Source: Prorocentrum cordatum
Lineage: Eukaryota > Sar > Dinophyceae > Prorocentrales > Prorocentraceae
NCBI GenBank assembly: GCA_963575745.1
Contig: CAUYUJ010009480.1
Span: 143,007 to 207,006 of the forward strand
DNA: 64,000 bases
Direction: 5' to 3'
Shown here: in pieces, positions 42,345-59,365 of the stretch
How the letters are laid out: every line of letters starts with the position of its first letter
How positions within the stretch are numbered: position 1 is the first letter of the stretch
The notes under the pieces: model-generated
The model's input: only the letters and a program-made list of their open reading frames with translations
Database searches by the model: none
Told to the model about the DNA's origin: nothing
Made by a program: the position numbers and the translations under genes

Positions 42345-42570
42345 ACGCTGCAGGGTCGTGGGCTCCAGCTTGCATTCCCGTATCTCGTTGAACAGCAACA
42401 GGGCCCGCTGCCACTGCTGACCTGTATCACACGCGCTGATCCCAGCGTTGCAGCTGATGGCATCGGGCTCCAATTTCGTCTCGACCATCTCGCTGGGCAG
42501 TGCCAGCGCCCGCTGCCACCGCTTGCCCCTCGCGCCCGCGCTGATCCCGAGGGTGTAGCTGACTAGGGCT
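42345..42570 (-). pseudogene. PPR repeat relic
   Basis: The minus strand reads two pentatricopeptide repeats of the dinoflagellate type: SYTLGISAGARGKRWQRALA..EMVETKLEPDA, then ISCNAGISACDTGQQWQRAL..EIRECKLEPTT. PPR proteins bind organelle RNA. Only two motifs remain, there is no start or organelle-targeting leader, and the frame runs into minisatellite on one side and stops on the other, so this is a relic. Confidence 0.75.
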
Positions 42571-42654
42571 GACCCGTGGACTCCGTCCACGACATCTGGC
42601 CGAGAGCATTCTCGGGGGAGCGGCGGGAATGCTGCCGAAAAGGTATTCACGTTG

Positions 42655-43330: not shown

Positions 43331-43344
43331 CACTCGGCGCAGTA

Positions 43345-43648
43345 AGTCGGAAGTGAGCTTGGTAACTCAAATAGGGCATATAGCCTGTCATATAGCATCC
43401 GATTCCAAGGCGCTGACCGTGGACATCGGATGGCAAATAGCGTCCATCGCTCTGCTGTAGCTGTGAAGGTGCAGTATGAGGGGTGGGCGGATAAGATAGG
43501 ATAAGATCGATGTAATGATCTTTCCAGCACATAGCGAACACTCGCGGTGTCCGGGCAAATAGGGCGCGCGTGCCTTGAGCCCAAGGCAGCGGCGCGCGAG
43601 CTATGCTCCCGATACTGTAACATCTCCCAAAGAGCTACCCTTAAAGTC
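43345..43648 (-). repeat. 3' LTR
   Basis: 304 bp, matching 59013-59316 with six substitutions and no indel. On the sense strand it starts GACTTTAAGGGTAGC and ends CTTCCGACT, so it lacks the usual TG...CA ends. Confidence 0.92.
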
Positions 43649-44017
43649 GGGAGGGGAGGAGACGGAGAGCATAGTCGCACGCAAAATTCGCGCGCACGAC
43701 TGTTTGCAAAGAAATGAAAACAGTGCGTACAAACTGGCCAAACGCCAGAATGTAAGGCGAGTTTCCTCGCAAAGTATTTCACGCAAATACAGGACAGCCC
43801 CTTCAAATAATGAAGGGCTATCGGCCTAGTTAGAGGTAGGCCAAAATTAGGCCATACCTCACCAAGCAAATGTGTATTAAGGCAAAGAGCCTGAGTTGTA
43901 TGAAGCCGGCTCGTTGCCAGGCGTGAAATATGAGGCTCGTTTCCGAGCAACTAAAGGGGCGCCTTTATAATAGGCGCCCGTGCTGGCAAACTGGACCGCG
44001 AGGGCAACAAGGACAGA
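43649..44017 (-). other. 3' untranslated region of the copia element
   Basis: Lies between the Pol stop and the 3' LTR. It contains two of the tetraloop hairpins (43757-43770 and 43935-43948) and a longer hairpin, GGGCGCC...GGCGCCC (about 43956-43980). The polypurine run next to the LTR (43649-43668) is on the plus strand, i.e. antisense to the element. Confidence 0.7.
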
Positions 44018-47000
44018 CTAAAATTGATTAGACTTGGGTTTGTCTCTGTCCTCGGGACCCCGAAAAGGAACAAATTGCTTCACGTCATACTTAAATGACT
44101 GAGTGCCTGACATCACTTCCAGAAGCAGCTCCCGATCGATGCTTCCCTTTGTATGCCCATCTGCGGTCATATCCCTAGTATCACACCATTGCACGTTATG
44201 TACTATACCTATATCCATAAGCTCACGTATCCAACTGATATGTCCAAGCAGAGTCCGTTCTGTGGGTATTTTGAGATCCCTGCTTGATAAAGATTTGTAG
44301 ACGGACTCAGCGTCTATGGTCAGAGAGACTTTGATAGCAAGGCCTCCAACTTCACGCATATCTCGTAGTTGTCGTGGAGTCAAGGCCCCTGCCTTAAGCT
44401 CATGGAGAGTAATGAGCGTAGGGTAACACTCATCAAGGTTATGTGCGGCTGCAAGTGCCTCCGCAGCATAACTGGACCTCACCTGTAATCGGTGTGATTT
44501 GCATAGTCCGTCACAGAGGTGAACGACGGACTTGCCTTGAGGCGAGTTTCCTCGCCGTAGTACGTTGGCCCCGCGAATGCCGTAGCCCTTGGTCTCGTCA
44601 TCCTCCTCCCCGGTAAGCTTCCGATATCCCGAATCGCTATGGATGTCGACTTCATTCGTCGGCTTCATCCGAGGGAAGGTGATACGTTTCGGACTGCTGA
44701 TCAGCTTTCGCGTCACAGCATTCAAACGTCTGACTTGTAAATTGGTGGGCTCTTGAATTTTCTGAAGAGAGACCACATATACCATAAGCCAGATTTGAGT
44801 AAGAAGGGCATAGGCGAGGGCTCCTCGCAGGCTGACGAACATGTCGGTAATAAGTTTCGTGGCTTTGGCGTCGGCCGCCGCTCCTGTAAGTTCTGGATGT
44901 GTGATGGGACGTAGTTGTTTGATATACTCGTCCTGGTCCATGATCGCATCTCCCTGATCATTCTTAGTGTAGCGGACGGCACAGTTCGTATATGTGTGCT
45001 GGTTGAGCTTGCATTTGCCAAAAACCTTTTCGACACGTTGTACATAGTCGTCGATATTTTTCTCTAGACCTGTCATATTAATGTCATCGACATGTTTTGC
45101 AGTCAGAAGATCTTGGCTGAATTCAAATTCAGGATCGTAACTAGTCGGTGAAAGTCCTATAGCTCGTGTGGTCGTACGAAGTTTGAAAGAGAACGCTCTT
45201 GGGGCGTCCTTAGTACCCGTTCCTGGTTTGAGGCACCTAAGACAGCGTCGACTTTCGTCGTAGGATGAGAAGCCGGGTAGGGTACGAAGTACCTGAGCGC
45301 TTCCTGGTGGAAGAGTAAAGCAGACCATGCGAGTTTCCTCGCCAGTGGCATGGGCAAGTTCCTCGTAGGTCAAACCTTTTAGGAATGCCTTATCGATATC
45401 CATGGATGCTAAGATCCACTCTGGATGACATGCCGCTTCACTTGCCAAGAGTCGTTGAGACTGCCTTCGGGCGGTTCCCGAGAATGTTTCCACATCAAAG
45501 GCCTCAGTATCCATAAATCCACGAAGGACCAATCTGAGACGAATGGTTTTAACGTTCTCGGTGCCCATCTTTACGAACTTCCACTTGTATACATATCTGG
45601 ATGTCATGATGTTGGAAGCTTTGGATAAGTCGTACATCTCAAAGCATCGGTTATCAATCCAGATCTTGAGCTCAGTATATAAGGCTTCACTAACCTCCTT
45701 TGGATGTGCTGCTATGTCGGCTTTGGTCAGTAGGTCGTCTTCTTTGACAACCACAGCACGTTTAGCAGCATTGGATACATATACTCTCATCGTTGCGACC
45801 ATATCGGTATCGAGCTGTGCAAGTTGGGTCTGATCCAACACTATTTTTGACATTTCTGATGTAAAGCATAGTTCAACGTAAGGACCATATTCATCACTGT
45901 CTAGGGAATAGCTCTCGTCGTTTGTGTTCGAACAAAGAGATACTAGACAAGACTCACATGAGTTAGGCTCGTCTCCGAGCATATCTGATGATGTAATATC
46001 ATCTTCGTCCGCAAATGCTGAAACCAAAACGCATTGGTTAGGCAGCGTAGTTGTTGGGACGCAATAGAGATAATCATCTGTAATCGTCGTAGGATGAAGG
46101 TTCATACGTAGTTCGTCGTACCACTCTTCCAGCATCATGGCTTCGATATTGTGTTCCTCATTATCCTCATAGATTGTCGACAGACGGCCTTCGCTAGGCG
46201 ATGAAGCGTCTGGTGTGTCTGGAGAAGGCCTGTTTCCAGGCGACTCGTGTTCTCCAGACGTGTTGCTTGGATGCTGATATTTAGCCAGGTCATCGTGAAA
46301 TCCTAAGGAAGGGACACGAGAAGTCAAGCATTGAATAAGTCTGGAGTGAGTGCTACCAGTAATCTGAGAAATGTTTAGGCCGGTGCCCACACATTCATAG
46401 TAGTGGAACGCCGGGCTAATGTCATTGTCATAGTGGATCAGCGTAGACCCGGTGGCGTACTTTACTGCAGGTAGGCTTGACACACTCTTAGCCAATCGAA
46501 CTGCTACTACATGTTCCACTCTGAAGTAATTTCGTACGAGATACTGTAGTGCTAGGTGTACGCGCGGGTGAAACTTGCTATCGTCTGACAGGTTAAGGTT
46601 TCCCTTGTAGTCGGGAATATACCCGAAAACTTTGGCAGGTTTCCCTGCACTGAGATGTGCCACATAGGCAAGGACGGTTTGCATGGCCATGTTATCCATG
46701 CCAAGTTCCCGTGTGAGGAGACATTCGATGTATAGTGTGTGACGAGCATCAGGATACATCACAATTACCTCACGAGATCCTGCCTTGACAACAATATGTC
46801 CTCTTTCAGGCACGTTTCGGATCACCGGGAATGGGCCGTTCCAGCCTCCATGGTCGTCCTTGGTGGCAGTAGGTCGGTGGTAGTCGACCAAATCCCCTGA
46901 TGAGTAGAGGCGAGCACCATCAGGAGTCGTCTTAGCCCTAAGAGCCCGATTTGTCTTGGCTACAGCAGTAGCCTGAGTTATGGCTTCGAGGCTGACTTCC

Positions 47001-50000
47001 CTTACACGACGTTCTCGTTCGTGTCCTGAAGTCTCGGGTCCCTTGGGAAAGTCAAGGGTATCGAGATCAGGAAGGAAGGAGGGCTGACGTCCTGTGTGTG
47101 CCTGATATGGCGATACTCCGTTATAAAACGTAAACGCATTAGTAACGAAGATGCCTTCCGCCAATACTCTAGTGAATACAACAGGGATGTTGTGTCTATT
47201 CAATTCTTCCTCAATCATGTGGAGGACGCCTCTGAGAATGCCGTTTCGTGACTCAATTGAAGTCGCGTGTTGGCCCGGTGCTCGGATACGAAGTTCCGTG
47301 CCCTTATTGGCCATCATGCTTTTAGCGGCCTCATTATTCAGGGCGCCTTCTCCATCTGAGTATAAAACTTTGAAGGGTCCGTGATAGGCAATCCAGCAGT
47401 AGTGGTAGGCATCGATGATTGCGTCGCGTTCTCTGTCGGAAATTTCAAGGCCTGCTGCCAGGCGAATACAACGAACCATAATATGAAATATGGTCCGTTT
47501 CTTATAAAACATGAGGTCCATTTCCCCTTCGTCGAGCCAGTTACCAGGGAGGCTTACCGATGGTAATGTCGAGTTTCCTGGACGTTCCCATGCTCTACAT
47601 TCCCGACAGGTGTCGCATATTTCCTTGATCATGTTCAGTCGAACGTTATCAAGCCCCACCTTTTCGAGGATTAGCCTCATCTTTGGCTCCTTCGCATGAT
47701 ACCATCGCAGATGCAGTTTTCGGAGTTCCTTTTTCACAACATGGGGTTCGTGACTACGGAGACTCTGTAGACTGTGTTGGATGTCAAATCTCGTCCAGTC
47801 GGGTAGTCGTGGAGCCCCAGAGCCGGTGGAGGCAAGGGGGTTCCTTGTAGCTCTGCGTAGTTGATCCCCTGTGTTGACTGCGTCTGGAGGTGGTGGTACG
47901 CCTTGTAGACGTCCGCGGCGGGCCGCTACCTGTGGCGCATCGCTAGAAGACGCAGAAGGCGTGTTTCCACGCTCGGGGGCGTCTCGTAGCAGGTCGTAGC
48001 TGCTGGTGCCAGATGTCGGATCGACGTTACCGAAGGAACGTGGTCGTGGTGGCCTGGCGTGTGCGCCTTGGCGGCCACCTGAAGCTGAAGCTTGGCCCTC
48101 ACCAGGTTTAGGTAGGGGTTTCCACCAAGCTGGCACGTTTTTGCCTTCGGGGTCGTGGTCGTCTGGTAGTTTAAATGGTTCAGCAAAACGACATTTACCA
48201 GGTTCGGTATCAAGGTGATTCTTAACACCCTTGCTTCTCGTAAGATCCCTCTGACATGCTGGACATGGCCAGTATACAGAGATAGAGTCATGATATTTGC
48301 ACTGCGTAGGGTCTCTGTTATGGCTAGGACTGTCCTTTCGGACGTTGTCGATGCATGCCGGGCACGTAGCCACCTTTGGGATGATACGATCACCGATGCG
48401 TCTCATACCTTCACCTGGTTCAGCTTGCTCAGGAAGGTCGGCAGGATAAGCATGTGCAGTATTTATAGGCGCGTTTCCGCGCGTGGTGTCAATGGCTTTC
48501 GCCAAGTAGACGGCTTCCACGAAGGCAGACTGCAGTCGTCGAGTGTATTTTTGTGCCAGTGAAAGCTCGGTGTTGCACGGTTGTGCGTGCACATGCTGAC
48601 CGTTGCACTTGAGTCGCTCAAAGGGTTTAAGAATTGTCTTGTCGTTGCTGGTGATATTTGTCGGCTTCTTAATATAGTCACCAGTCGTATCTTTAAGTCC
48701 AGTAGCGCATTGATCAATGCGCACGGTCGTGATGTGTGGTCGGTTGGCAAGCTTCGTCCATGGAGAGATATCGTCCACCCGTGTTCCTGCCGGTTGTCCG
48801 CGTATAAACCACCTCTGAGCGTCATCTTGGGTAACAGCAATTTTACCACAATAGATTATGTGTGGTAAGTCTTCTCTGTGGTGCTGTTCCCAAGTGTTAT
48901 AGTTGACTTTGTAGTTATAGTAAGATGGTGGTCCTGTGGTGCGGCAGCTGGGTTGCAGTATGGCAACTCGTACGTAGCATATCTTGAAGTAGTGATCTAT
49001 CACCTGCTGCACCGAGGGGTCTCCCAGGTCGACATATGTAGTCTTGTCCAAGTTGCCGCCTGAGGACAGTCCCCTTGAGAAGGCAAGCTCTGAGATGCCA
49101 CCCTCACCACCACAAAGCTCCAACATATCCACGCAATTGTTATGGCCATAGCATAGTGTAGCAACTATGCTGTATATGTCAGCGTGTGTGTCGGGCATAG
49201 ATGTGGGGAGGGTAAGGAACAGGTCATCGTCCTCGTCGGAGCTTATCAGCTCGACAGGGGCGTCAGTACTCCAGGTTGCCATAAGATCCTGTCCGAGCCC
49301 TGACAAGTCGTCGCCGCAATCGTCATTTCCGTCTTCGACGTGCTTTTTAATACGGCGAGGCTTGATGCCTGCTTCCTTTTCGGCTTTGAGCCTTTCCTTC
49401 TGCTTTATACGCGATTCAGTGGGTAAAGCTTGCTCGTTTTGTTCGTCGGTCTGTGTACTCATTGTCGTGGTGGAATGGGTACATGCGTCAATCGCCAGAG
49501 TCGGGAGGGGGAGAGAACAGTCATCTATGATGACGCGTCTATGTTTCTGTGGTGATTGAGTAGGCTCGTTTCCGAGCAAGACCGGTTCCTCGGGTTGCCA
49601 ATACAACCGAGTACTGATGTTGGCAACCCCTGCAGGTAATGGTGCATGCCAATCATACCCTGTTGGTTGATCGGTAACTGAGATATCTTGAATAACCGCG
49701 TTGGTATCCAAATTGATTGTTACACGTCGGATAACTTCAGACCATTTTGGTCCTCCTTTATGAGTCGTCACGTAATGACGAGTATTATGGTCTGTACGTG
49801 TATACGTATTTAAGTATACGGGCACGTTTCCGTGCGTGGTGGTACTCCCCAGGATTTTGTCGTTTAGGTAACGGATGAGTGTAGTACGTGTCTGAGCCCG
49901 CCATTCAGCATGTCGTACCGTATGGCCGTACCAGTCCAACACATGTTGTGGTATGGCCTGCTTACAGGTACATGTCCACAGCTTCGAGCTAATCGGTATC

Positions 50001-50482
50001 GATGATGCTATCTGCATATATGTACCACTTGGTGTATTGTCTTGCATATTGAACCGAATACCGAAATGACACAAACGCATCCGTATTACTGTCAACTTCA
50101 GATCTTCCAGAGTATCACGTACTGGAGATAACTTCCAAACGTATCCTGGGGGACCGAATATGATGATTTTCATGCTGAGTTTCTTGGCTTTTATCAACAG
50201 GTTCTGGATGCGTGACCAGTGTGGGGCCACTCTCTTTCCTGGAGTTCGTATATACCAGTCACCCGGAGTACTGATCCATATGAGAGTGGAATCTCCACTG
50301 ATCACCGCACCTAGATAATTTGTGCCCACGCTTGTCATAAGTTCGTTGTGGGAAATACGGTCACAAATATAACCTCGTGTGCGGAGGTCGGCACATGCCT
50401 CCCTCGTATCTTCAATGACAAAAGCCCTCTTACTAAGGCAGGTTGCCCCGCTGTCCTTGTTACCCCCCGGCTTTTCAGCCAT
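44018..50482 (-). CDS. Copia Pol: MTase-like domain, integrase, RT, RNase H
   Basis: 2,154 residues from the ATG at 50482; by readthrough of the UGA at 50522 it would start 13 codons earlier and be fused to Gag-protease. An N-terminal domain typical of dinoflagellate copia (STPGDWYIRTPGKRV; RMRLCHFGIRF) is followed by a methyltransferase-like region (about 448-640: LELCGGEGGISE, YVDLGDP, LQPSCRTTGPPS), two cysteine fingers (CPAC at about 710 and 740), integrase (LHLRWYH and CDTCREC for zinc; D989, D1042, E1077, a DD35E spacing), RT (SMDIDKAFLKG at about 1690; HVDDINMTG at about 1796) and RNase H (HSDSGY, AAEALAA, TIDAES, ADGHTKG). All catalytic residues are present. The protein would carry out cDNA synthesis and integration. 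Confidence 0.93.
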   Translation of the reverse strand: MAEKPGGNKDSGATCLSKRAFVIEDTREACADLRTRGYICDRISHNELMTSVGTNYLGAVISGDSTLIWISTPGDWYIRTPGKRVAPHWSRIQNLLIKAKKLSMKIIIFGPPGYVWKLSPVRDTLEDLKLTVIRMRLCHFGIRFNMQDNTPSGTYMQIASSIPISSKLWTCTCKQAIPQHVLDWYGHTVRHAEWRAQTRTTLIRYLNDKILGSTTTHGNVPVYLNTYTRTDHNTRHYVTTHKGGPKWSEVIRRVTINLDTNAVIQDISVTDQPTGYDWHAPLPAGVANISTRLYWQPEEPVLLGNEPTQSPQKHRRVIIDDCSLPLPTLAIDACTHSTTTMSTQTDEQNEQALPTESRIKQKERLKAEKEAGIKPRRIKKHVEDGNDDCGDDLSGLGQDLMATWSTDAPVELISSDEDDDLFLTLPTSMPDTHADIYSIVATLCYGHNNCVDMLELCGGEGGISELAFSRGLSSGGNLDKTTYVDLGDPSVQQVIDHYFKICYVRVAILQPSCRTTGPPSYYNYKVNYNTWEQHHREDLPHIIYCGKIAVTQDDAQRWFIRGQPAGTRVDDISPWTKLANRPHITTVRIDQCATGLKDTTGDYIKKPTNITSNDKTILKPFERLKCNGQHVHAQPCNTELSLAQKYTRRLQSAFVEAVYLAKAIDTTRGNAPINTAHAYPADLPEQAEPGEGMRRIGDRIIPKVATCPACIDNVRKDSPSHNRDPTQCKYHDSISVYWPCPACQRDLTRSKGVKNHLDTEPGKCRFAEPFKLPDDHDPEGKNVPAWWKPLPKPGEGQASASGGRQGAHARPPRPRSFGNVDPTSGTSSYDLLRDAPERGNTPSASSSDAPQVAARRGRLQGVPPPPDAVNTGDQLRRATRNPLASTGSGAPRLPDWTRFDIQHSLQSLRSHEPHVVKKELRKLHLRWYHAKEPKMRLILEKVGLDNVRLNMIKEICDTCRECRAWERPGNSTLPSVSLPGNWLDEGEMDLMFYKKRTIFHIMVRCIRLAAGLEISDRERDAIIDAYHYCWIAYHGPFKVLYSDGEGALNNEAAKSMMANKGTELRIRAPGQHATSIESRNGILRGVLHMIEEELNRHNIPVVFTRVLAEGIFVTNAFTFYNGVSPYQAHTGRQPSFLPDLDTLDFPKGPETSGHERERRVREVSLEAITQATAVAKTNRALRAKTTPDGARLYSSGDLVDYHRPTATKDDHGGWNGPFPVIRNVPERGHIVVKAGSREVIVMYPDARHTLYIECLLTRELGMDNMAMQTVLAYVAHLSAGKPAKVFGYIPDYKGNLNLSDDSKFHPRVHLALQYLVRNYFRVEHVVAVRLAKSVSSLPAVKYATGSTLIHYDNDISPAFHYYECVGTGLNISQITGSTHSRLIQCLTSRVPSLGFHDDLAKYQHPSNTSGEHESPGNRPSPDTPDASSPSEGRLSTIYEDNEEHNIEAMMLEEWYDELRMNLHPTTITDDYLYCVPTTTLPNQCVLVSAFADEDDITSSDMLGDEPNSCESCLVSLCSNTNDESYSLDSDEYGPYVELCFTSEMSKIVLDQTQLAQLDTDMVATMRVYVSNAAKRAVVVKEDDLLTKADIAAHPKEVSEALYTELKIWIDNRCFEMYDLSKASNIMTSRYVYKWKFVKMGTENVKTIRLRLVLRGFMDTEAFDVETFSGTARRQSQRLLASEAACHPEWILASMDIDKAFLKGLTYEELAHATGEETRMVCFTLPPGSAQVLRTLPGFSSYDESRRCLRCLKPGTGTKDAPRAFSFKLRTTTRAIGLSPTSYDPEFEFSQDLLTAKHVDDINMTGLEKNIDDYVQRVEKVFGKCKLNQHTYTNCAVRYTKNDQGDAIMDQDEYIKQLRPITHPELTGAAADAKATKLITDMFVSLRGALAYALLTQIWLMVYVVSLQKIQEPTNLQVRRLNAVTRKLISSPKRITFPRMKPTNEVDIHSDSGYRKLTGEEDDETKGYGIRGANVLRRGNSPQGKSVVHLCDGLCKSHRLQVRSSYAAEALAAAHNLDECYPTLITLHELKAGALTPRQLRDMREVGGLAIKVSLTIDAESVYKSLSSRDLKIPTERTLLGHISWIRELMDIGIVHNVQWCDTRDMTADGHTKGSIDRELLLEVMSGTQSFKYDVKQFVPFRGPEDRDKPKSNQF
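48570..49140 (-). other. Methyltransferase-like domain in Pol
   Basis: LELCGGEGGISE resembles the SAM-binding motif I of C5-cytosine methyltransferases, YVDLGDP the acidic strand 2, and LQPSCRTTGPPS the position of the Pro-Cys motif IV. The catalytic Cys is present but the usual PPCQ is PSCR, so activity is uncertain. Confidence 0.5.
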
Positions 50483-50521
50483 CAGGCAAGACGACGAGGG
50501 GGCGACGTCGCCCTGCCATCT

Positions 50522-50524
50522 TCA
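50522..50524 (-). other. Single in-frame UGA between Gag and Pol
   Basis: The sense strand reads TCA TCT TGA AGA TGG. The frame before it (from 59200) and after it (to 44018) is the same, and no other stop lies between. It may be a programmed readthrough or recoded codon, a natural Gag-Pol border with internal initiation at 50482, or a recent mutation. A hairpin with one G-U pair lies about 70 nt downstream (50438-50451). Confidence 0.8.
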
Positions 50525-53500
50525 AGATGAAGAAGATGTGCCTACAATATCTGCCAACATCTGGGCTTCCCTCAGATGCTGGAGCTCAGCACTGCAGCGC
50601 GCCGTGGCCTCAGAGGCGGATTGCTCCGCAAATGCTGTCAGCATCGATGGATTATCCATCAGCTGTTTCAGCACGCCTTTGGACCTAGCGTCGCTGACCG
50701 TATGCAATTCACGATTAGTGTATCCCATCACTATTTTACGGCGGGACTGCACAGCGTCCATGGGTACACTACCACCATGCTTGGCCAGTGTCCTGGCAAC
50801 AAAACAATCGAACGTCTCGAGATCGTCGATGTTGTCGCCTCGCATGGTGGCCTTGGCGAGCGTCTCCATCAACCCCTGGGGCAGGTTTCCCTGCAATTGA
50901 TTGCGCTCCTGCGCTGGGGTCGGCTCGCCTGTCAGCACTGTCTGGAAGGACGTGCTGCTTGAGCCCGAGGCGGGTTGCCCCGCAGCTCCAAAACGATCAC
51001 ACCTGATCGACAGATGCCCTGACGGCAACTTCGTCGTCGGCATGATTTTGGAGCCTTCCGGGAGCTCCATCTTGACCTGCCCCTTACCAGGGAATATCAG
51101 CTTTTCCTGGCCTCGTTCAAGCACGATGATCGTGCGTTTGTCCTGCATACTATCGAGACCTAGGATGGCTGGCAGGTCCTTTCCACAGCCTGACACAATG
51201 TTCGTCTTGTATGAATCGTGTTGGGCTGACCCCTGGTACTCGCAGGCAATGCTAAATGTGCCTACGGTATCCGCTGGGGCCGACCCCTCTCCCACTCCGT
51301 TGATATGCAAACGAGAGCGGGGCTCGAATGTACAAGCACGACCATGTGACTCAGCAGCCTGAACGAACTTACGGCTCGTGTTCTCGCCCATGATGTTGAT
51401 CTTCGAACCGACGTCGATGAGTATGGAATTTCCACCATCATCCAAGAACGTCTTACTCGGCTGCTTGATGTGCACAGTTTCTGAAGTGTCGGCTGTGTCG
51501 GTAGGCGGGTTTCCCCGCGGCACATTCGTACTCCCTGGCGGGTTACCCCGCACGACACTGGCATGCGACTCGCTCTCGGCCATGCGTGCCAGGTCAATGT
51601 ACTGGAAGTACGACACGTGCTGGGCGTGATCACCACGCTCCTCCCGCCAGTTGGCATACTCATCACGTATGCTCATATACTGCTCGCGGGTAGTGCGCCT
51701 TATCAGCGTTAGGTACGAGTGAAGGGCGATGTCTTGCAGCCCTTCGTTCATGACGTGATCCCGGTACCGCAGCCACTCCTCGAACTCCTCATTCGTCGCT
51801 GAGATGTTGACGGCCCTGGCTGCTGCTGCTGACGCCGCTGAGGATTCTGATAGGTCTAACGACGGACTATCAGTTTCAGGATTATTGGCATCTAGCATAA
51901 ACGTTGTGTGTGTATTATCCATCTGATTCTGGAAATGTCGTACACGCAACTCGCGCAGCTGATCAGGGTCCAATGACATCTCAACCTCGCCTCCACTCTG
52001 GGGAGACATCTGAGGAGTATCCTGCAGGTTTCCCTGCTGAGGCGCCGTCATCGGGATAAGCTGATCGAAATATCCCGTTGCCATAGGCGGCCTTACCTCT
52101 TCAGGCAGGTGTCCCTGCTGGTGTGACGAAGCTGTCTGCATAGCTAGCATCCTGGCCGTCATCTCCTCCACCATGCTCCTTAGCTCCCGCAGCTCCCTCA
52201 TTGACTGCTCGGGAGTCTGACTAAGGGAGCCAGTCCATGGGAAGGACGATGTTATAATGCCAGGTGCACGACAGATCGCACATGGTGGCTGCTGTGGATC
52301 TCCCTCACGCTGGTTTGTCACGTGGCCCACCACGTTAGAATTCCAGCATCCCTCGTGGAATAGGTGATTGCACCTCAGGCGATACACACTATCCCTGGGC
52401 TGAAATTCTTCGAGGCATACAGCACAGGTGTCCTCCATCCCAGTAAAGACTTCTACGTCTGCTACCCTGGGATATACCCGCCGCTGCCTCTCCAGTACCG
52501 TCTCGGAGGGCATGAAGGCTGATGGGGGAGTCCCCGTTAGGTCCATCACCTCCGGCCCTTCGACATTTGGCATGGAAGTGGTAGGAGTCACGGCGGGCGA
52601 GTTTCCTCGCAAAGGTGAGCCCCTATTCCGCACCACATCGAGTGCAGCTGCACGTGACTGGTCCCGTACACTTTGCACCGCCTGCCTCCTCATGAAACAT
52701 GCCTGCTGAGTGTGGTGCGTCTGCCTGATGTAGTCAGGCACGCCCCTACTGCCAGACGATATTGAATGGGCAGTGGGTTGTACAACCACCTCTGGTGATG
52801 TTGGGGAAGGCATGAAGGCCATGTGCGGGTACATGGAGTGGTCACTGCAGCGCACATTGGTGAGGTTATGCATCTGATCCGCCAATTCCCGAACAAATTT
52901 GTTCGGGACCCTTGTACCGTCAGGGTATAATGGCGGATTCATCTGCGTGGGTGGTGGCCTCTGGCCCTGAGACATGCTCGGATGGGCGTTGAACGCCGGG
53001 ATAAAGGCTCGTTGCCGAGCGGGGCCCCGTGGGTTGGGACCCTCCGGTTCCCAGGACCAGGCTGGCCTCCACCTCTGCCCACTTGGGTGAGGCAGATTAT
53101 GGTTCTGCACCTGCTGTACCGCGGCCGCCACTCTTGAGCGATAGTCGTCGGGTATACCCGCCCTGTGGTGGCTTGGTGTACCAGGCAGGTTTCCCTGCTG
53201 ACTCGTTGGCGTGCCGGGCGGCATCATGTTGAGGAGGGCTGTGCTGTGATCAGCCCTAGCCGCAGCTAACCTCTCCATGAGTGTGCCGTTTACTGCAGGG
53301 CGAACAGGTGTCCCAAATGGGGATTGTGCTGGCGGAGTGCCCGCTGGAGTCATGCCCCTTGGAGTGTGCATGCTCTGTGTGGGGCTTGCGTGCGTTGGCT
53401 CGAACCGAGCAGGTCCGCTTGTAGGCAGGTTTCCCTGCATGGCTTGACGATTTCTCGTGGCCATAGCGGACATTGCTCCCTGGCCTGCGGCCCAGGGATC

Positions 53501-56500
53501 CTGCTGGTACAGCCTGTCCGCCAGCTGTTCTACCTGGTCAGGGTTCAGCGCAGCTGCAATCTGATCCAGGTCTGAAGTACTTATGGCCTGCCAAGACACG
53601 GCGCTCGGCCCTTGGCTTGGGGCACGGCTTGGAGCCGCGCTCCCGGCCTCACTCTCGGTGATCATAAAGATCCGAAAGATCTCAGGCTGGTTTCCCAGCT
53701 GGGTGGGGCTGTAGTGGTCCCCAACGTCCCTGTGGAGGTAGACCATGGCTGGATCAACGCCCTCTTGGTCTCGGGACCACTTGTACTTAACGCTGGAATC
53801 ACCAACATCAGCCCACCTATCTGGGGCAGTCATCATACTGACAGAGACTCGCGCACGGCGGATCCCCAAATATTCTGGGTTGCGCCATTGCCTTCCAGTG
53901 GTCAGGTCCTCTACATGGGAAATGTAATACGGTTCAATGATACCGTTATCTCCCTCGGACAAGAGGACTCCGTTATCGGACCAACAGAACTTTATACCAT
54001 CTTGTATGGCCTTGCGCCAATCTACAAAGATGATGAGGTCTGATTCTGGGTCCCACCCACTGTTCACGGCACGGCGGCGCAATGTCGGCACGAAGTGGAT
54101 GTGTGAACGGCCTGTCCCCGTTTTCTTCGTGTTGTGCTCAGGTCTACAGGACAGGCCGTGCCACATAATGCCTTCGAAAGCGTGCCATCGAGTGCCATGC
54201 ATGGCGACTTCAGGGTATTTGGCCGGTCTCCCGGCGGGTTCGTCGCACAGTACAATGTAGCTGTACAGCGACCATGGAGCTTTCAATTTCCATGAATGCC
54301 CCTGAGAGGCGCGGACGAAGATAGCGGGCTCGCCAGAGTCCCGCATTAGCACCTTGAATTGAAGGCGCTGTTTTTCTTCTCCGTCTGGTTCACGAACATG
54401 AACAACTTCCATCATGATGGCTGCGAGTTGGTCAACCGAGCGACCATACAACTGCTCGCTAATAACTTTGGCCTCTTCATAAGCGTGCCTCGAGTGACTT
54501 GTGTTCCAAGGAAAGTTCTCCACGAGGTCCACGAGGTTGATCCAACCATCATGATCATCAAAAGATTTCAGGCGCCACACAGGATTATGTGGCTTATCTG
54601 GCGCATGTCTACATATCCTGCTGATAGCTTTGCTTAACCTTTTAAGAGTATCATTGGATCTGGGAAGAATTCCGGCCTTCCTGCATTCCTTCATGAATGG
54701 CTCATCCACCGAACGTATCGGTGGGAGCTTCCGAAGTGCCAGTCTATCCCTGATCAGATCTGGAGTCCCACTAGTGAAGGATGTGTCTCCTGGGTGGTGC
54801 AGCTGAACTGCTGGCGGGTTTCCCCGCATCGGAGCCTCTGTTGCTGAAGAGGCTGCGGCTCCTGAAGAGGAGGAAGCTGCGGCAGCAGCGCCTGGCGGGT
54901 TTCCCCGCGGAGATGCGCGACTGGCGCTGCCCCTGATCTTCGGCACCCAGTTACCCCTCGACATAGCACCTTCATCGGACCTCCTGGAACGAGCCGCCAC
55001 AGGCGAAGCTGGCGCAGGTGCATACTCACTGCGCTCGAAAGCTGCCGCCCGTTCCGCAATGGACTTGCTGCGGCTAAGCGAACGTCTTCGTTCCTCAGTG
55101 GGGTCCTGGGGTTGCTGCTTGGGCACAGATGCTGGTATAGGAGCTGTGCGTTTCGGCGCCGGAGGCGGCTTAGGTGTCGGGGGTTCACTCTTGGCCTTCG
55201 AAGTTAGTGGGAGTGGGGGCTTTCTAGCCCCCTTCATGTAGAGCTTGCTGGAATCCTCCAGCATCTTGCGAGTTGCCTCGCGTGTGCGTTCATCTACTGT
55301 CTGAATACGCTCCTCATCTTCCGCCACACGTTGAGCCTTTGTCTCGTCCTTGATGATCGGCTCTGGTTGTTGGGACTGGCTAGATACGCCAGGCGAGTTT
55401 CCTCGCATACCAGGAAGACTAAAGAGCGCGTCTTTCTCTTCCTGGGTCATGGCTACCATTCCCCTTGGAGCCGGAGTAGGTTTCTCTTCTTCTTTCGGAT
55501 CCAAGTGGCCCAAGATCCCGAGACGACTACTCACTGCTGCGATCTCTTCCGGTGTCATCGGGTCAAGTGGCGGATGGCCCTCCTTAGGAGGGGTTTTGCC
55601 CCTGTTGGGGCTCAGGCCTTCGTTGTTTCCAACGGGGCATCCTGGCCTGTGATTCTGGAACGGCTGGGAACAAGGACCACATGCAGCGTGAGGCCTATAC
55701 TGCTTGCGAGCCGCGATAATATCTCGCAACTGGGTCCGCGCTTCTTGAATTTCAGGGCGGCGGATGTTTGTTGCAAGCTGATAGCCTCCACGGATGGGTC
55801 TGCCATCGCCGTCCCTATAGGCAGGATTGCCCTGGCCGAAGGCCGAGTGTCCCCCTTTTCGGCGTCGTGGGTCGTTGTATGGAAGTAGCTGGCCACCTCT
55901 TCTGGCAGCGTGTTCCTTTGGACCAGCCTGTCTCCAATCACGAGGGAGTCGAGCCTGAGGATGTGGCTCTCCTCTGACGCGCGTATGGGAACGAGATCTT
56001 CTGGTGTTCTCATCAGAAGAGGCTGCTGATGCAGCAGGAGCGGCGCCCGTTGGAGGTGCTTGAGGAGGCTCCTCTGCGATCCCGGGTGGATCGCTCGATG
56101 GAGGCAGGCCCCCCTGCTGGGTGGAGCTCGGCGCAAGTGGCTCTTGCGCCGATGGTGATGATGGTTCAGACTCATCAGGGTCGAAATCGACCTCTTCCTC
56201 ACCAGTCGCGTCCATCATGAGGATGGTGACGTCATCCTCATCTAACCCACAACCATCGCCTTCTACTTCTTCTGATGTCGAACTACCAATTATGATGGCC
56301 ATTGGCGCATCTGGTAAAGGCAGGTTTCCCTGCATGGCCGGCGTCTGGCCGTCACTCGGCTGTCCTGGAGTAGGAGGCGCAGTCGTCGGCTCAGGGTCAT
56401 CGACGAGCATAGGCTGCCTAGCAATGTTACGCATGGCCGTATGGTTTGGCCTCATCCCCAGCTCCTGGAGATTCCATCCTGGCGGGGGAAGATCATGACC

Positions 56501-59200
56501 ACGCATAGCCATTGCCATTTCCAGGGCACGACGCCATCTACCATGGGAGTATACTAAGTGTCGTTGCACTTCCTGAGGATTTATACTGTCAATGAGAGAC
56601 AAAGCTGCCAAGAGTAGCTCTGAGCTACCGCAAGCATCATTATCATTATCTGTCATAATACCAGCTTCAATTTGTTCTTGACTCTCAGGATATGCAATTG
56701 CAAGTATCTCATGCATCCACATGAGGGTCTGCAAAAGTGTACGCGGTCCATATTCGCCTGGAGCAAGCGAACCAGGAGGTATGAACGGAGAACCTGGTTC
56801 ACCTGCAATGAAGGCCTGAACAAATGCTTGAGACTCCATTTCAATTAAGTCTTCAATAGTATGGGGATATTCTCCCAGCAGAAAAGGCCTGTGTCCAGGC
56901 GGGATTTCGGGCGGAGGTTCGAGGTTCTGTTGAACCTCGGAAGGCGAAGCCTCTATAGTGGTGTCCTCGCCGTCGCTCTCGTAGGCCATGATGTTGCCTG
57001 GGTTCCCGAACATCCAGTCGAAGAAGGAAAGAGGCTCGTTTCCGAGCGTACCGTGTTCCACGGGAGTGAGTTCATTACTGCCCGTGACGAACCGGCGGAC
57101 GTACTCGAGGTAATACGCGTATAATCCATGACCATACCCCTCGAGCTCGTCAATGTTGTCCATGCCAACGACCCATGTGAAAAATATCTGTTCCATAGCC
57201 TCAAAGTCCTGGAGGCTCAGATACTCAATGGATGGTGTGCTTGAGCCGAAATGGACTTCGGACGACATGCCCTTTCCATTTCCCTTCGCTGGACAATCTC
57301 GCACAAGATGATCGGTACTACCACACTCATGACATTTGAGAACCTGGCCGTCTCTACCTCGCGGGTTTCCCCGCCTACCTTTGCCTTTTCCTGAGGTCTC
57401 TCTACGGCCTTTACCGCGGCCTTTTCCCCCAAAGAATATCTCATCATGTTGTTCATCTGAGAGCCTCTGGAGAAATGCCGCGATACCTCGCCCGTTCAAC
57501 CTCCGACGACCACGCTTGCCTTTACCCTTTCCTTTAAAACTTCTGCGTATCCTCCTTCTAACACGACGCACTGGTTTTCGTGTGAACCTCCTCCACCTTC
57601 GCTTAGCCTGTTGTAACAGCCAGAATAAATGCTCAGCACGCTGATTGTCGTTATCCATATTCATGATATCTGACCAATCTAGAGCTTCAACACCATCTGA
57701 TGATATAGTGTCTGTGTCGGTGCCGGAGTCGAAATCTTCGTCTCCTAAATAGGTGGATACACCGTCGGTTAGGGGATTTGATTCCCCCCATAACGAGCGG
57801 TGTGGTTGTGGTTCTCTAGAAGGAGGGCTGGTTGCCCAGCTTGGTTGTGATCGATCCCCTGCTAATAAAGCAGTGGATTCTCCTGGGTCATCGGCCCATA
57901 TGTTTGAGGGCCCGTTTCCAGGCTGGACTTCAGTAGTCAAGGTAGTGTAGAAATTTCCACTACCAGATCCCCTTCCTCTTCCAAACACGGATCCTATGTT
58001 GCCAGGGGATCGTTCGGATAGGTGACCTACCGAACGCATCCTTTCCAGCAACTCATCATATTGTTGTTGTGTTCGAGGCATTTGGTGGTTGAGTGGCTGC
58101 AAGAGTTGCGTGGCTTTCTGGTCGCCGACGCCTAAGGCGCGGAATAGGATAGTAGTTAGCAGTTGGAAGTTAGGAAGGTCGAATCCCACCGACTGTGCCT
58201 CAAGTCGGGCCATTTCGAATCGGGTAAGAGTGACATCGATTCGTTCCCCGTGAGGCACATGGAAGTCGATGAGTTGTGTGCCGGAAGTGAGCTGTCGCTC
58301 ATCTTCCAGGCGTTCGAACTTCATGCTGAGGAGGAACATGATGTAAGTTACTGGGTCCGTGTGGACCCCATCAATGTCAGCACCATAGTTTATAATGTCA
58401 GGCGGTACCCTCATGGCGAGTGTCCTCGCTAGGCCTCCCAGGCCGCGTTGTATTGCGGCCGCTTGGGCCTGTGGCGTCATACGTCCGCTTGTAACGTTGA
58501 GCCACGCGTTGACCTCGTAAATGTACTCACGAAAAGGTACATTACCCTGAGGGTCCCAGTATGGGCCATGTGTTTGCCCATCGGTGCTGTTATCTCCCCG
58601 ACGCATGTGTGCGATTGCTGCCCCCAGCGCGAACCATATGATAGCGAAAACGATTAGCCCAATAATGTGTAACGAAGAATGGTTATGATGAGCGGTGTCA
58701 CGCTGGGGTAGCGCCTTGTCGAGTCTTCGAGGCGCTCTGTCTGGCGGGTTTCCCCGCCCTTGCGTCAGGTATTGCGTTATTGGCTCGTTGCCGAGCGGTT
58801 GATAGTAACGCAATGATGAAGCGTATATGGTACCAATCTGGTCGTCTAGACGTCGTACCTCTCGTGTAGCTTCTTGCTCTTGAATAGATCCTCGTAAATG
58901 TACTGGGAGTGGTGGCGCAGGGTAGTAGGTGGTCACGAAGATCGTGCCGAAGAATGTGAGGCTGAGAAGAGCAAGAGCTGACCACACGAGAGTGCGGCCA
59001 GCTCCGCTACCAAGTCGGAAGTGAGCTTGGTAACTCAAATAGGGCATATAGCCTGTCATATAGCATCCGATTCCAAAACGCTGACCGTGGACATCGGATG
59101 GCAAATAGCGTCCATCGCTCTGCTGTAGCTGTGAAGGTACAGTATGAGGGGTGGGCGGATAAGATAGGATAATATCGATGTAATGATCTTTCCAGCACAT
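50522..59200 (-). CDS. Copia Gag polyprotein with Tpt1, RING and protease domains
   Basis: About 2,890 residues from the ATG at 59200, which lies inside the 5' LTR. In order: LTR-coded leader; two hydrophobic segments (about 71-90, WSALALLSLTFFGTIF; about 178-199, IIGLIVFAIIWFALGAAIA); Gag core (about 230-400); CCHC knuckle CHECGSTDHLVRDC (about 622-635); long Pro/Ser-rich linkers; Tpt1/KptA RNA 2'-phosphotransferase domain (about 1517-1767: ISRICRH, FVRASQGHS, MHGTRWHAFEGIMWHGL, SHIHFVP, DNGVLLSEGDNGIIEPYY); RING-H2 (about 2256-2313: CAVC, CNHLFHEGC, CAIC); retropepsin-like protease (about 2590-2715: ILIDVGSKINIMG, LPAILGLDSM). The protease has DVG where DTG/DSG is usual. The Arg-His-Arg-Arg set of Tpt1 is kept. 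The start could also be a later ATG. Most hairpins encode xGNxP here. Confidence 0.9.
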   Translation of the reverse strand: MCWKDHYIDIILSYPPTPHTVPSQLQQSDGRYLPSDVHGQRFGIGCYMTGYMPYLSYQAHFRLGSGAGRTLVWSALALLSLTFFGTIFVTTYYPAPPLPVHLRGSIQEQEATREVRRLDDQIGTIYASSLRYYQPLGNEPITQYLTQGRGNPPDRAPRRLDKALPQRDTAHHNHSSLHIIGLIVFAIIWFALGAAIAHMRRGDNSTDGQTHGPYWDPQGNVPFREYIYEVNAWLNVTSGRMTPQAQAAAIQRGLGGLARTLAMRVPPDIINYGADIDGVHTDPVTYIMFLLSMKFERLEDERQLTSGTQLIDFHVPHGERIDVTLTRFEMARLEAQSVGFDLPNFQLLTTILFRALGVGDQKATQLLQPLNHQMPRTQQQYDELLERMRSVGHLSERSPGNIGSVFGRGRGSGSGNFYTTLTTEVQPGNGPSNIWADDPGESTALLAGDRSQPSWATSPPSREPQPHRSLWGESNPLTDGVSTYLGDEDFDSGTDTDTISSDGVEALDWSDIMNMDNDNQRAEHLFWLLQQAKRRWRRFTRKPVRRVRRRIRRSFKGKGKGKRGRRRLNGRGIAAFLQRLSDEQHDEIFFGGKGRGKGRRETSGKGKGRRGNPRGRDGQVLKCHECGSTDHLVRDCPAKGNGKGMSSEVHFGSSTPSIEYLSLQDFEAMEQIFFTWVVGMDNIDELEGYGHGLYAYYLEYVRRFVTGSNELTPVEHGTLGNEPLSFFDWMFGNPGNIMAYESDGEDTTIEASPSEVQQNLEPPPEIPPGHRPFLLGEYPHTIEDLIEMESQAFVQAFIAGEPGSPFIPPGSLAPGEYGPRTLLQTLMWMHEILAIAYPESQEQIEAGIMTDNDNDACGSSELLLAALSLIDSINPQEVQRHLVYSHGRWRRALEMAMAMRGHDLPPPGWNLQELGMRPNHTAMRNIARQPMLVDDPEPTTAPPTPGQPSDGQTPAMQGNLPLPDAPMAIIIGSSTSEEVEGDGCGLDEDDVTILMMDATGEEEVDFDPDESEPSSPSAQEPLAPSSTQQGGLPPSSDPPGIAEEPPQAPPTGAAPAASAASSDENTRRSRSHTRVRGEPHPQARLPRDWRQAGPKEHAARRGGQLLPYNDPRRRKGGHSAFGQGNPAYRDGDGRPIRGGYQLATNIRRPEIQEARTQLRDIIAARKQYRPHAACGPCSQPFQNHRPGCPVGNNEGLSPNRGKTPPKEGHPPLDPMTPEEIAAVSSRLGILGHLDPKEEEKPTPAPRGMVAMTQEEKDALFSLPGMRGNSPGVSSQSQQPEPIIKDETKAQRVAEDEERIQTVDERTREATRKMLEDSSKLYMKGARKPPLPLTSKAKSEPPTPKPPPAPKRTAPIPASVPKQQPQDPTEERRRSLSRSKSIAERAAAFERSEYAPAPASPVAARSRRSDEGAMSRGNWVPKIRGSASRASPRGNPPGAAAAASSSSGAAASSATEAPMRGNPPAVQLHHPGDTSFTSGTPDLIRDRLALRKLPPIRSVDEPFMKECRKAGILPRSNDTLKRLSKAISRICRHAPDKPHNPVWRLKSFDDHDGWINLVDLVENFPWNTSHSRHAYEEAKVISEQLYGRSVDQLAAIMMEVVHVREPDGEEKQRLQFKVLMRDSGEPAIFVRASQGHSWKLKAPWSLYSYIVLCDEPAGRPAKYPEVAMHGTRWHAFEGIMWHGLSCRPEHNTKKTGTGRSHIHFVPTLRRRAVNSGWDPESDLIIFVDWRKAIQDGIKFCWSDNGVLLSEGDNGIIEPYYISHVEDLTTGRQWRNPEYLGIRRARVSVSMMTAPDRWADVGDSSVKYKWSRDQEGVDPAMVYLHRDVGDHYSPTQLGNQPEIFRIFMITESEAGSAAPSRAPSQGPSAVSWQAISTSDLDQIAAALNPDQVEQLADRLYQQDPWAAGQGAMSAMATRNRQAMQGNLPTSGPARFEPTHASPTQSMHTPRGMTPAGTPPAQSPFGTPVRPAVNGTLMERLAAARADHSTALLNMMPPGTPTSQQGNLPGTPSHHRAGIPDDYRSRVAAAVQQVQNHNLPHPSGQRWRPAWSWEPEGPNPRGPARQRAFIPAFNAHPSMSQGQRPPPTQMNPPLYPDGTRVPNKFVRELADQMHNLTNVRCSDHSMYPHMAFMPSPTSPEVVVQPTAHSISSGSRGVPDYIRQTHHTQQACFMRRQAVQSVRDQSRAAALDVVRNRGSPLRGNSPAVTPTTSMPNVEGPEVMDLTGTPPSAFMPSETVLERQRRVYPRVADVEVFTGMEDTCAVCLEEFQPRDSVYRLRCNHLFHEGCWNSNVVGHVTNQREGDPQQPPCAICRAPGIITSSFPWTGSLSQTPEQSMRELRELRSMVEEMTARMLAMQTASSHQQGHLPEEVRPPMATGYFDQLIPMTAPQQGNLQDTPQMSPQSGGEVEMSLDPDQLRELRVRHFQNQMDNTHTTFMLDANNPETDSPSLDLSESSAASAAAARAVNISATNEEFEEWLRYRDHVMNEGLQDIALHSYLTLIRRTTREQYMSIRDEYANWREERGDHAQHVSYFQYIDLARMAESESHASVVRGNPPGSTNVPRGNPPTDTADTSETVHIKQPSKTFLDDGGNSILIDVGSKINIMGENTSRKFVQAAESHGRACTFEPRSRLHINGVGEGSAPADTVGTFSIACEYQGSAQHDSYKTNIVSGCGKDLPAILGLDSMQDKRTIIVLERGQEKLIFPGKGQVKMELPEGSKIMPTTKLPSGHLSIRCDRFGAAGQPASGSSSTSFQTVLTGEPTPAQERNQLQGNLPQGLMETLAKATMRGDNIDDLETFDCFVARTLAKHGGSVPMDAVQSRRKIVMGYTNRELHTVSDARSKGVLKQLMDNPSMLTAFAEQSASEATARCSAELQHLREAQMLADIVGTSSSS
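51060..51440 (-). other. Retropepsin-like protease domain
   Basis: ILIDVGSKINIMG holds the catalytic Asp with Val replacing the usual Thr/Ser, and LPAILGLDSM is the second hydrophobic-Gly motif. It lies just before the end of the first ORF, the normal place for a copia protease. Confidence 0.75.
52263..52433 (-). other. RING-H2 domain within the Gag polyprotein
   Basis: C-x2-C-x14-C-x-H-x2-H-x2-C and a final C-x2-C (CAVCLEEF, then RCNHLFHEGC, then CAICRAPG). RING-H2 fingers are usually ubiquitin ligases. All eight zinc ligands are present; the loop between the second and third pairs is longer than usual. Confidence 0.85.
53900..54655 (-). other. Tpt1/KptA domain within the Gag polyprotein
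   Basis: Covers about 250 codons. Known Tpt1 enzymes move an RNA 2'-phosphate to NAD+; the signature blocks LRH, IRAxQGHS, HGT..W..I...GL, R.HIHF and NGVIL..G..G.I.P.Y are all present here in order and spacing. The usual length is about 200-250 residues, so the domain is complete. Confidence 0.85.
59001..59012 (-). other. Primer-binding site (initiator tRNA type)
   Basis: Sense TGGTAGCGGAGC starts directly after the 5' LTR. It is the dinoflagellate counterpart of the copia TGGTATCAGAGC site and would pair with a tRNA ending GCUCCGCUACCA. Confidence 0.8.
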
Positions 59201-59316
59201 AGCGAACACTCGCGGTGTCCGGACAAATAGGGCGCGCGTGCCTTGAGCCCAAGGCAGCGGCGCGCGAGCTTTGCTCCCGATACTGTAACATCTCCCAAAG
59301 AGCTACCCTTAAAGTC
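59013..59316 (-). repeat. 5' LTR
   Basis: Same sequence as 43345-43648 apart from six substitutions. The long Gag frame is already open in it, with ATG at 59200. It presumably holds the promoter, which I cannot place. Confidence 0.92.
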
Positions 59317-59365
59317 AGTAACCCTTCCCATGCGCCGCCAACGGGAGGGTTTGTTCGCCCTGTCC

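Follow-up and report, generated by a model that had tools for sequence, protein, structure and literature searches.

Dispersed recognition hairpins are already known in RNA viruses. In single-stranded RNA viruses, dispersed packaging signals share one recognition motif set in varied sequence, and in MS2 this motif is short, comprising (x)xYA in the loop and a bulged A (both from the part of PMC6281560 at hand). The boxB RNA, which is bound by the lambda N peptide, has a five-base GNRNA loop, needs a closing U-A pair for high affinity and depends on the stability of its stem (from an excerpt of PMC12027372). The array described here lies in a 64,000-nt stretch of a contig of the dinoflagellate Prorocentrum cordatum, referred to below as the window, within a complete Copia-type element of 16 kb on the minus strand, which is the element's sense strand. 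On this strand there are 39 perfect hairpins of 5 bp whose loops read G-N-N-A. The array is real, confined to the sense strand and missing from the long terminal repeats (LTRs), and strong purifying selection acts on its structures, which show compensatory change.

Like the viral packaging signals, these are many sense-strand stem-loops of a genomic RNA with a common recognition motif. In contrast to MS2, about forty near-identical 15-mers hold strictly to one form of stem, loop and flank, the carrier is an LTR retrotransposon, and the contact with Gag is putative. The array shares with boxB a short stem and a GNRA-like loop, and whereas boxB, in the excerpt cited above, is read by an arginine-rich peptide, the candidate here is a region of Gag. 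The loops, however, are tetraloops with a closing G-C pair in 37 of 39 hairpins, and not the GNRNA loop closed by U-A that the excerpt describes. The element itself resembles other dinoflagellate Ty1/copia elements in its LTRs, its 5-bp target-site duplication (TSD), its Gag knuckle and its RVT_2 reverse transcriptase (RT), yet differs in its length of 16 kb, in the KptA/Tpt1 and RING domains of its first open reading frame (ORF1) and in the hairpin array, none of which is mentioned for Copia in the portions of the literature consulted. No description of a hairpin array in retrotransposons or dinoflagellates was found among open-licence papers, and if its function proves different from that of viral packaging signals, the array would be of a new kind.

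The hairpin array and controls for chance

The loops of the 39 hairpins (Table 1) are GAAA (25), GCAA (6), GAGA (2), GTAA (1) and GACA (5), of which 34 are GNRA. The original prediction had claimed 35 hairpins; its counts for GAAA, GAGA and GTAA stand, but its 4 GCAA and 3 GACA loops were too few. The stems take 14 distinct sequences among the 39 hairpins and 12 among the 34 GNRA ones, where at least eleven had been proposed. The repeat unit is a 15-mer, GC-nn-G-GNNA-C-n'n'-GC-C, ending in an unpaired 3' trailing C; a G preceding the stem, which would pair with this C, occurs at 2 of the 34 sites having it (binomial 0.003). The single orientation that had been claimed is evident within 43757-58796, where the minus strand has 34 perfect 5-bp hairpins with GNRA loops and the plus strand one (47179, GGGA loop). 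The remaining window holds six further GNRA hairpins (four minus, two plus), none with the consensus. As also claimed, the LTRs carry no hairpin and the 3' untranslated region (3' UTR) carries two. The other 37 lie in open reading frames (ORFs), 27 in the frame that reads xGNxP and 10 in other frames, rather than the at least seven given before, one of which had been placed at 54232 instead of 54222.

When the 15,368-nt interior is shuffled with its dinucleotides preserved, it contains on average 0.56 GNRA hairpins and at most 3 (500 shuffles), against 34 observed. Synonymous-codon shuffles (1000 each) give a mean of 1.23 and a maximum of 5 for ORF1, against 23 observed, and a mean of 0.53 and a maximum of 4 for pol, against 9. 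With 34 sense hairpins to 1 antisense and shuffle maxima of 3-5, chance and antisense symmetry are rejected; equal frequency on the antisense strand or in codon shuffles, which the original prediction had named as evidence against itself, is not what is seen, the counts there being near zero against 34.

Covariation claimed for hairpins that were picked as perfect would be a circular finding, and sites were therefore also chosen by their fixed letters only, GCNNGGARACNNGCC, blind to the two variable pairs. Both variable pairs are formed at all 24 such sites of the element's sense strand, in agreement with the proposed stem covariation; the remaining window and the opposite strand hold no such sites. 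When one letter of GCNNGGARACNNGCC is allowed to be off, both pairs are formed at 13 of 14 sense-strand sites inside the element, versus 0 of 3 outside. Of five near-copies also recorded, two contain a G-U pair, two have an altered loop and one is decayed. The hairpins at 58301 and 55634 are without the GC...GC consensus and may be chance occurrences; 55634 is not kept in the divergent copy considered below, and 58301 lies outside that copy's coverage. The spacing of the hairpins is slightly more even than random (coefficient of variation 0.72 vs a random 95% range of 0.74-1.30), and in predicted folding within a 314-nt context 32 of the 39 stems form with P > 0.5.

Constraint in near-identical copies

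The assembly (4.13 Gb, 21,875 contigs) holds at least 40 copies at 98-100% identity for one piece of pol, with 1618 first-look candidates. The near-copy set consists of stretches from 28 of those 40 places (L001-L028) and 3' pieces of four; L001 is the window itself and is excluded from the counts, leaving 27 other copies, and most 3' sites are covered by few of them (5-12). Relative to the window, changes amount to 17/6220 (0.27%) in stems, 2/622 at the trailing base and 26/2485 in loops, as compared to 4740/230445 (2.06%) at all other positions, while 5000 random stem-shaped sets have a mean of 2.0% and a minimum of 0.47%. Over 30 sites, the distinct loop variants number one at position 1, seven at position 2, four at position 3 and two at position 4. 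Nineteen copies, covered across 9.9 kb that take in ORF1 and the beginning of pol, each contain 20-26 GNRA hairpins in sense and none in antisense; L009, a stretch taken from the wrong side, has 12 in sense and 1 in antisense.

The same constraint is seen at synonymous positions, with 10/1516 changes (0.66%) in stems vs 2070/48822 (4.24%) elsewhere; the nonsynonymous changes are 7/4364 vs 2100/161566. Selection of a peptide xGNxP, with the hairpins as its by-product, would fit the 27 of 37 coding hairpins whose frame gives xGNxP-like peptides. As the main cause it is refuted by the 10 hairpins in other frames, the two in the 3' UTR, the loss of hairpins in synonymous shuffles and the constraint on synonymous sites in stems; the complementary-codable flanks of the closest protein relative (see below) also speak against it, and we regard it as next to impossible. 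The earlier argument that RNA structure and not peptide is the selected feature is upheld by these synonymous counts as well as by the stems kept in a far more diverged copy.

Compensatory change in a divergent copy

A divergent copy, 70-83% identical to the element (contig C3127; loci L042, L044 and L045), was met by chance in a pattern search with GCACGGNGACGTGCC that brought in ten loci, L033-L042. Of these L042 is the divergent copy, L040, compared with the element, gave no match, and the other eight were judged by hairpin count only; L043, outside this set, does not match the element either. In the divergent copy 2629 of 11794 background positions are changed (22.3%), versus 15/340 in stems, 17/136 in loops and 0/33 at the trailing base. 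All stem letters are kept at 25 of the 33 fully aligned sites (among them 56117, despite an additional base in its 3' arm), whereas 5000 random sets have a mean of 3.7 and a maximum of 11. Conservation ends sharply at positions 1 and 15 of the unit, the three flanking positions on either side being changed in 29-52% of sites; within it, per-position changes (of 33) are 0-2 for the outer two pairs and the closing pair, 1-3 for the variable pairs, and 1, 5, 7 and 4 along the loop.

Stems are changed at 8 of the 34 sites listed. Compensatory double changes account for three of them, C-G to G-C at 57047 and A-T to G-C at 53198 and 52118, and wobble pairs are found at 57923 and 45980. The original prediction had held that a lack of compensatory changes between copies would count against it, and these three stems supply such changes. 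Counted in the divergent copy itself, hairpins of this type number 29: 23 coincide with window sites, three are in unaligned parts and three in aligned parts where the window has no hairpin at that start, one of which is shifted by one base from 48482; at 56408 it has a hairpin where the window has a non-hairpin sequence of the same length. That the RNA structure of the hairpins is under selection is close to proven.

The selected structure might instead be one of single-stranded complementary DNA (cDNA), serving in priming, strand transfer or integration. The element has a DNA phase and the strand bias would also fit plus-strand DNA, but GNRA is a stable loop class of RNA, and some forty dispersed sites are not known to match any cDNA step, which makes this alternative very unlikely.

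As a separate observation, three GCACGGGGACGTGCC hairpins lie on one strand within 1.9 kb at G000:C597:90007-91877 (L036-L038).

Protein relatives and possible lineage dialects

A protein search gave 93 relatives, of which P0001 is 88% identical, P0002-P0021 are 60-68% and those from P0022 onward at most 50%; relatives carrying the name Symbiodinium reach at most 42%. P0001 has nine xG[NDHS]xP motifs, all nine with flanks codable by complementary codons. Seven of the nine fall on window hairpin sites, D or S replaces N at six, and the partners change between the window and P0001 from R-A to R-T and from R-T to H-V. In a relaxed test, the P was dropped and GN or GD sites were taken in poorly conserved surroundings, by a conservation cut-off of our choosing; at 106 such sites in P0001-P0021, flanks are complementary-codable in 52%, vs 25% in shuffles (maximum 39% of 5000), while 196 sites in conserved regions give 19% vs 16%. 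The unfiltered test yields 40/149 for GN and 46/137 for GD in P0002-P0021 vs a baseline of 16.5%, and P0022-P0093 have no excess (GN 52/289, baseline 17%). At site 45967, 13 of 17 G[ND] sequences (of 23 aligned) are Watson-Crick compatible vs 26% in shuffles that ignore relatedness (p ~1e-4).

Individual proteins repeat forms of their own, such as DPGNRI in P0006, HGNVH or HGDV in P0017, and AGQPA four times in the gag relative P0096, in which the arginine-rich region of Gag is conserved. This is a hint, read from protein sequence, that each lineage may use its own hairpin dialect, one control being weak. A pattern for the P0006 dialect, GATCCGGGNAACCGGATC, is absent from this genome, and that dialect therefore rests on protein sequence only. 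Tentatively, and with some doubt, a lineage-specific RNA identity code may be considered, whereby each dinoflagellate Copia clade would repeat its own micro-hairpin dialect in co-evolution with its own Gag, and co-resident families would sort their RNAs by dialect. Candidate dialects would be GCnnG-GNAA-CnnGC-C here and, from proteins, apparent GNGA loops in P0001 and stems coded by DPGNRI in P0006, HGNVH in P0017 and AGQPA in P0096. If the dialects hold at the DNA level, they would form a set of natural RNA-protein specificity pairs.

Proposed function of the hairpins

The definite 15-nt signature, including its unpaired 3' base, implies that something reads sequence and shape. Our best guess, with a probability of roughly 0.5, is that the hairpins are packaging or assembly sites read by Gag. 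About forty copies of one putative cis-acting 15-nt site are spread along the genomic RNA, and the protein that would bind them would recognise the GNRA-like loop, the outer GC clamp, the closing G-C pair and the trailing C. The likeliest candidate for this protein is the Gag of the element itself, with its arginine-rich region and CCHC knuckle, and the 16-kb RNA would then be selected, condensed and packaged through many weak, identical contacts. Two precedents put Gag first: lambda N is an example of how an arginine-rich motif can read a GNRA fold (excerpt of PMC12027372), and assembly by way of dispersed packaging signals has been described (part of PMC6281560).

A host RNA-binding protein or pathway may read the hairpins in place of Gag, for export, translation control or escape from silencing, or as a self/non-self mark. 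The same conservation data would fit, sites occur in the 3' UTR too, and the hairpins have no direct tie to Gag here. Yet the lineage dialects suggested by protein relatives would be more readily explained if the element encoded its own reader, and the 15-mer GCACGGNGACGTGCC occurs 90 times genome-wide vs 149 times for its reversed control, which for that one pattern gives no sign of wide host use. A host reader is, in our estimate, unlikely though well worth keeping in mind.

GNRA loops are also shared with tetraloop-receptor docking modules, and the hairpins could dock into receptors elsewhere in the RNA, compacting it by tertiary contacts. GNRA, the classic docking loop, is present in 34 of the 39 hairpins. 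However, GACA loops are in use as well, and the linear flank base (the unpaired trailing C) and the GC clamp are conserved, neither of which docking is known to require. The exact 11-nt receptor is rejected, for this receptor type only, since no pair of its halves lies within 400 nt on the sense strand. Docking is, on balance, improbable.

Several points weigh against the hairpins being selected sites that Gag reads. Docking to RNA and binding by host proteins are further possibilities for GNRA loops. For seven of the 39 hairpins the prediction in context is of poor folding, and in the same prediction 18 of 30 controls with other loops fold as well. A single assembly is the source of all DNA copies. 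Because the sites were taken for being perfect in the window, changes on the window lineage are under-represented; by our own estimate this lowers the apparent change by two-fold at most, not seven-fold. The divergent DNA comparison rests on a single copy, in which there is one mismatch at each of 54235 and 53438, the extra base at 56117 and a loss at 55634, and in which three loops fall outside GNNA (CAAA at 53198, GAAG at 52118 and 48482). Pair-compatible xG[NDHS]xP motifs number only 7/34 in P0002-P0021 and 3/120 in P0022-P0093, and the exact form is therefore not general. Without the variable-region filter the test lacks specificity, as GT (76/178), NG (37/75) and NC (32/57) outscore GN; these high scores presumably come from conserved columns.

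As a natural example of an RNA code superimposed on a protein code, the array is unusually clear, the motif being present about forty times and mostly in coding sequence. It would give LTR retrotransposons a system with an obvious, replicated RNA recognition site, in which the choice of one RNA out of many becomes open to direct test.

Origin of the hairpins

At the RT site, 45329, GExER is present in 20 of 21 relatives (P0002-P0022) and GEKER in 15, while the window has GEETR and P0001 has GEATR, with no indel. The relatives are ungapped yet variable at 46635 (AGKTP in five, AGKPA also in P0016), and at 44542 RRGNSP of the window aligns gap-free with RRGxxP of P0002-P0005. These constant-length differences show substitution to be the origin of at least some hairpins. 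One hairpin born in this way lies within a nearly invariant RT peptide, and the hairpin is kept by selection even there, where the peptide differs to fit. Insertion could also have acted in gap-rich linkers.

One of the roles offered in the original prediction was that of a mobile micro-hairpin, which would multiply inside the element, for instance through template switching while the RNA is reverse transcribed, and be only passively tolerated. The units are indeed near-identical, each lineage seems to carry its own form, and one additional 5-aa unit lies adjacent in P0001. Against this stand the strong purifying selection with compensatory changes, the single orientation, the absence from LTRs and the lack of consensus sites in the rest of the window, and the differences between GExER and GEETR (GEATR in P0001) and at 56408, which arose by substitution at constant length. 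The clean insertion and empty sites of a mobile palindromic mini-element are not seen at the RT site or at 56408, on which account simple insertion of a mobile hairpin is rejected. Such self-copying is highly improbable as an explanation of the array.

The host element and its surroundings

The 303-bp LTRs, the 5-bp TSD (TACTG) on both sides and the RVT_2-type RT agree with Ty1/copia, and PF07727 is listed for many relatives. No Pfam integrase match was found in five window pieces, and PF00665 is listed for some relatives. The extent given for ORF1 is that of the open frame, and the coordinates of the arginine-rich region were counted by hand from the translation.

Table 1. Coordinates of the element, its domains and its hairpins in the window
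Feature	Position	Strand	Remarks
5' LTR, 303 bp	59013..59315	(-)	6/303 differences vs 3' LTR; identical ends; TSD TACTG at 59316-59320
3' LTR, 303 bp	43345..43647	(-)	TSD TACTG at 43340-43344
ORF1 (Gag-like part, basic region, CCHC knuckle, KptA/Tpt1 domain, RING)	50522..59012	(-)	open as far as in-frame TGA 50522-50524
Arginine-rich region KRRWRRF..KPVR..RR.IRR, candidate hairpin reader	57488..57607	(-)	kept in gag relative P0096
CCHC zinc knuckle	57290..57337	(-)	PF00098, at its cut-off of 20.8 bits
KptA/Tpt1 RNA 2'-phosphotransferase domain	53951..54643	(-)	PF01885, E 8e-24
RING finger	52268..52432	(-)	PF17123 and PF13639
pol ORF, 2154 aa, ORF1's frame	44018..50482	(-)	
Reverse transcriptase RVT_2	45005..45649	(-)	PF07727, 36.9 bits vs cut-off 31.6
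Hairpin GCTCG-GCAA-CGAGC	58783..58796	(-)	
Hairpin GCGGG-GAAA	58744..58757	(-)	
Hairpin GCGAG-GACA, phase 0	58416..58429	(-)	
Hairpin TGAGC-GACA, off consensus	58288..58301	(-)	possibly chance
Near-copy GCCTG-GAAA-CGGGC	57910..57923	(-)	one U-G pair
Hairpin GCTGG-GCAA, phase 1	57827..57840	(-)	
Hairpin GCGGG-GAAA	57361..57374	(-)	
Hairpin GCTCG-GAAA	57034..57047	(-)	compensatory in divergent copy
Hairpin GCCTG-GACA	56887..56900	(-)	loop GAAA in 8/18 other copies
Hairpin GCAGG-GAAA	56320..56333	(-)	
Near-copy GCAGG-GGGG	56104..56117	(-)	loop GAGA in 17/19 other copies; additional base in 3' arm in divergent copy
Hairpin CGTTG-GAAA, off consensus	55621..55634	(-)	lost in divergent copy
Hairpin GCGAG-GAAA	55393..55406	(-)	
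Hairpin GCGAG-GCAA, phase 1	55268..55281	(-)	
Hairpin GCGGG-GAAA	54895..54908	(-)	
Hairpin GCGGG-GAAA	54814..54827	(-)	
Hairpin GCCGG-GAGA, phase 0	54222..54235	(-)	one mismatch in divergent copy
Hairpin GCTGG-GAAA	53686..53699	(-)	
Hairpin GCAGG-GAAA	53425..53438	(-)	one mismatch in divergent copy
Hairpin GCAGG-GAAA	53185..53198	(-)	compensatory in divergent copy, loop CAAA
Hairpin GCTCG-GCAA, phase 0	53007..53020	(-)	
Hairpin GCGAG-GAAA	52597..52610	(-)	
Hairpin GCAGG-GACA	52105..52118	(-)	compensatory in divergent copy, loop GAAG
Hairpin GCAGG-GAAA	52024..52037	(-)	
Hairpin GCGGG-GTAA	51538..51551	(-)	
Hairpin GCGGG-GAAA	51505..51518	(-)	
Hairpin GCGGG-GCAA, phase 0	50970..50983	(-)	
Hairpin GCAGG-GAAA	50881..50894	(-)	
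Hairpin GCCAG-GACA, phase 0	50784..50797	(-)	
Hairpin GCGGA-GCAA-TCCGC, phase 0	50616..50629	(-)	
Near-copy GCGGG-GCAA-CCTGC	50438..50451	(-)	one G-U pair
Hairpin GCACG-GAAA	49822..49835	(-)	loop GAGA in divergent copy
Hairpin GCTCG-GAAA	49564..49577	(-)	loop GCAA in divergent copy
Hairpin GCGCG-GAAA	48469..48482	(-)	loop GAAG in divergent copy
Hairpin GCGTG-GAAA	47959..47972	(-)	peptide partners R-T; H-V in relative P0001
Near-copy GCCTG-GCAG-CAGGC	47450..47463	(-)	
Hairpin GCAGG-GAAA, phase 0, peptide AGKPA	46635..46648	(-)	ungapped site; relatives variable
Hairpin GCCTG-GAAA	46228..46241	(-)	
Hairpin GCTCG-GAGA	45967..45980	(-)	G[ND] in 17/23 aligned proteins, flanks covarying
Hairpin GCGAG-GAAA in RT domain, phase 1	45329..45342	(-)	GEETR; GEKER in 15/21 relatives P0002-P0022
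Hairpin GCGAG-GAAA	44542..44555	(-)	peptide partners R-S; R-A in P0002
Hairpin GCTCG-GAAA, 3' UTR	43935..43948	(-)	
Decayed near-copy GCCTG-GCAA-CGAGC, 3' UTR	43909..43922	(-)	same in all 5 other copies read there
Hairpin GCGAG-GAAA, 3' UTR	43757..43770	(-)	

The KptA/Tpt1 domain is located within the Gag-side ORF of a Copia element, and in the divergent copy its codon positions 1, 2 and 3 are changed by 21, 15 and 58%, a pattern which suggests that the domain is kept as protein. The corresponding values for the RING finger are 7, 5 and 50%. A single TGA (50522-50524) parts ORF1 from pol in the same frame, and the 13 codons up to the pol ATG are open. The divergent copy likewise has an in-frame stop at the ORF1/pol junction, followed by a near-identical peptide (RWQGDVAPSSSCL / RWQGDAAPSSPCL). 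This arrangement could mean programmed readthrough; checking the stop codon across copies by pattern found nothing with the pattern used.

Immediately 3' of the 5' LTR, TGGTAGCGGAGC (58995-59012, minus strand) resembles the site at which initiator-Met tRNA primes in other Copia elements. At about residues 430-560 of pol (48800-49200, minus strand) there is a stretch ELCGG...LQPSCRTTG, which resembles a methyltransferase by eye only and has no Pfam methyltransferase match. Searches of the window gave nothing in Rfam at gathering level, no tRNA or tmRNA, no phage tblastn match and, for eight other long ORFs, no Pfam match above cut-off. Scans of viral contigs and of genome contigs gave no relatives, and protein searches gave no match for the middle region of ORF1 and one for the gag region. 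A lead towards a DNMT-retrotransposon was dropped, as the portion of PMC5890265 consulted indicates that it is not this element; the same portion describes Copia in Symbiodinium without any DNMT domain.

GTC-rich and TTGGGCCGTC-type repeats lie on both sides of the element, at 60932-61441 and 41062-43323. Within it, after element position 4162 (window ~55150, minus strand), six of nine copies examined have a 78-bp segment (L010, L011, L012, L017, L018 and L021), which is absent from L014, L020, L028 and the window, and two subfamilies are thereby marked.

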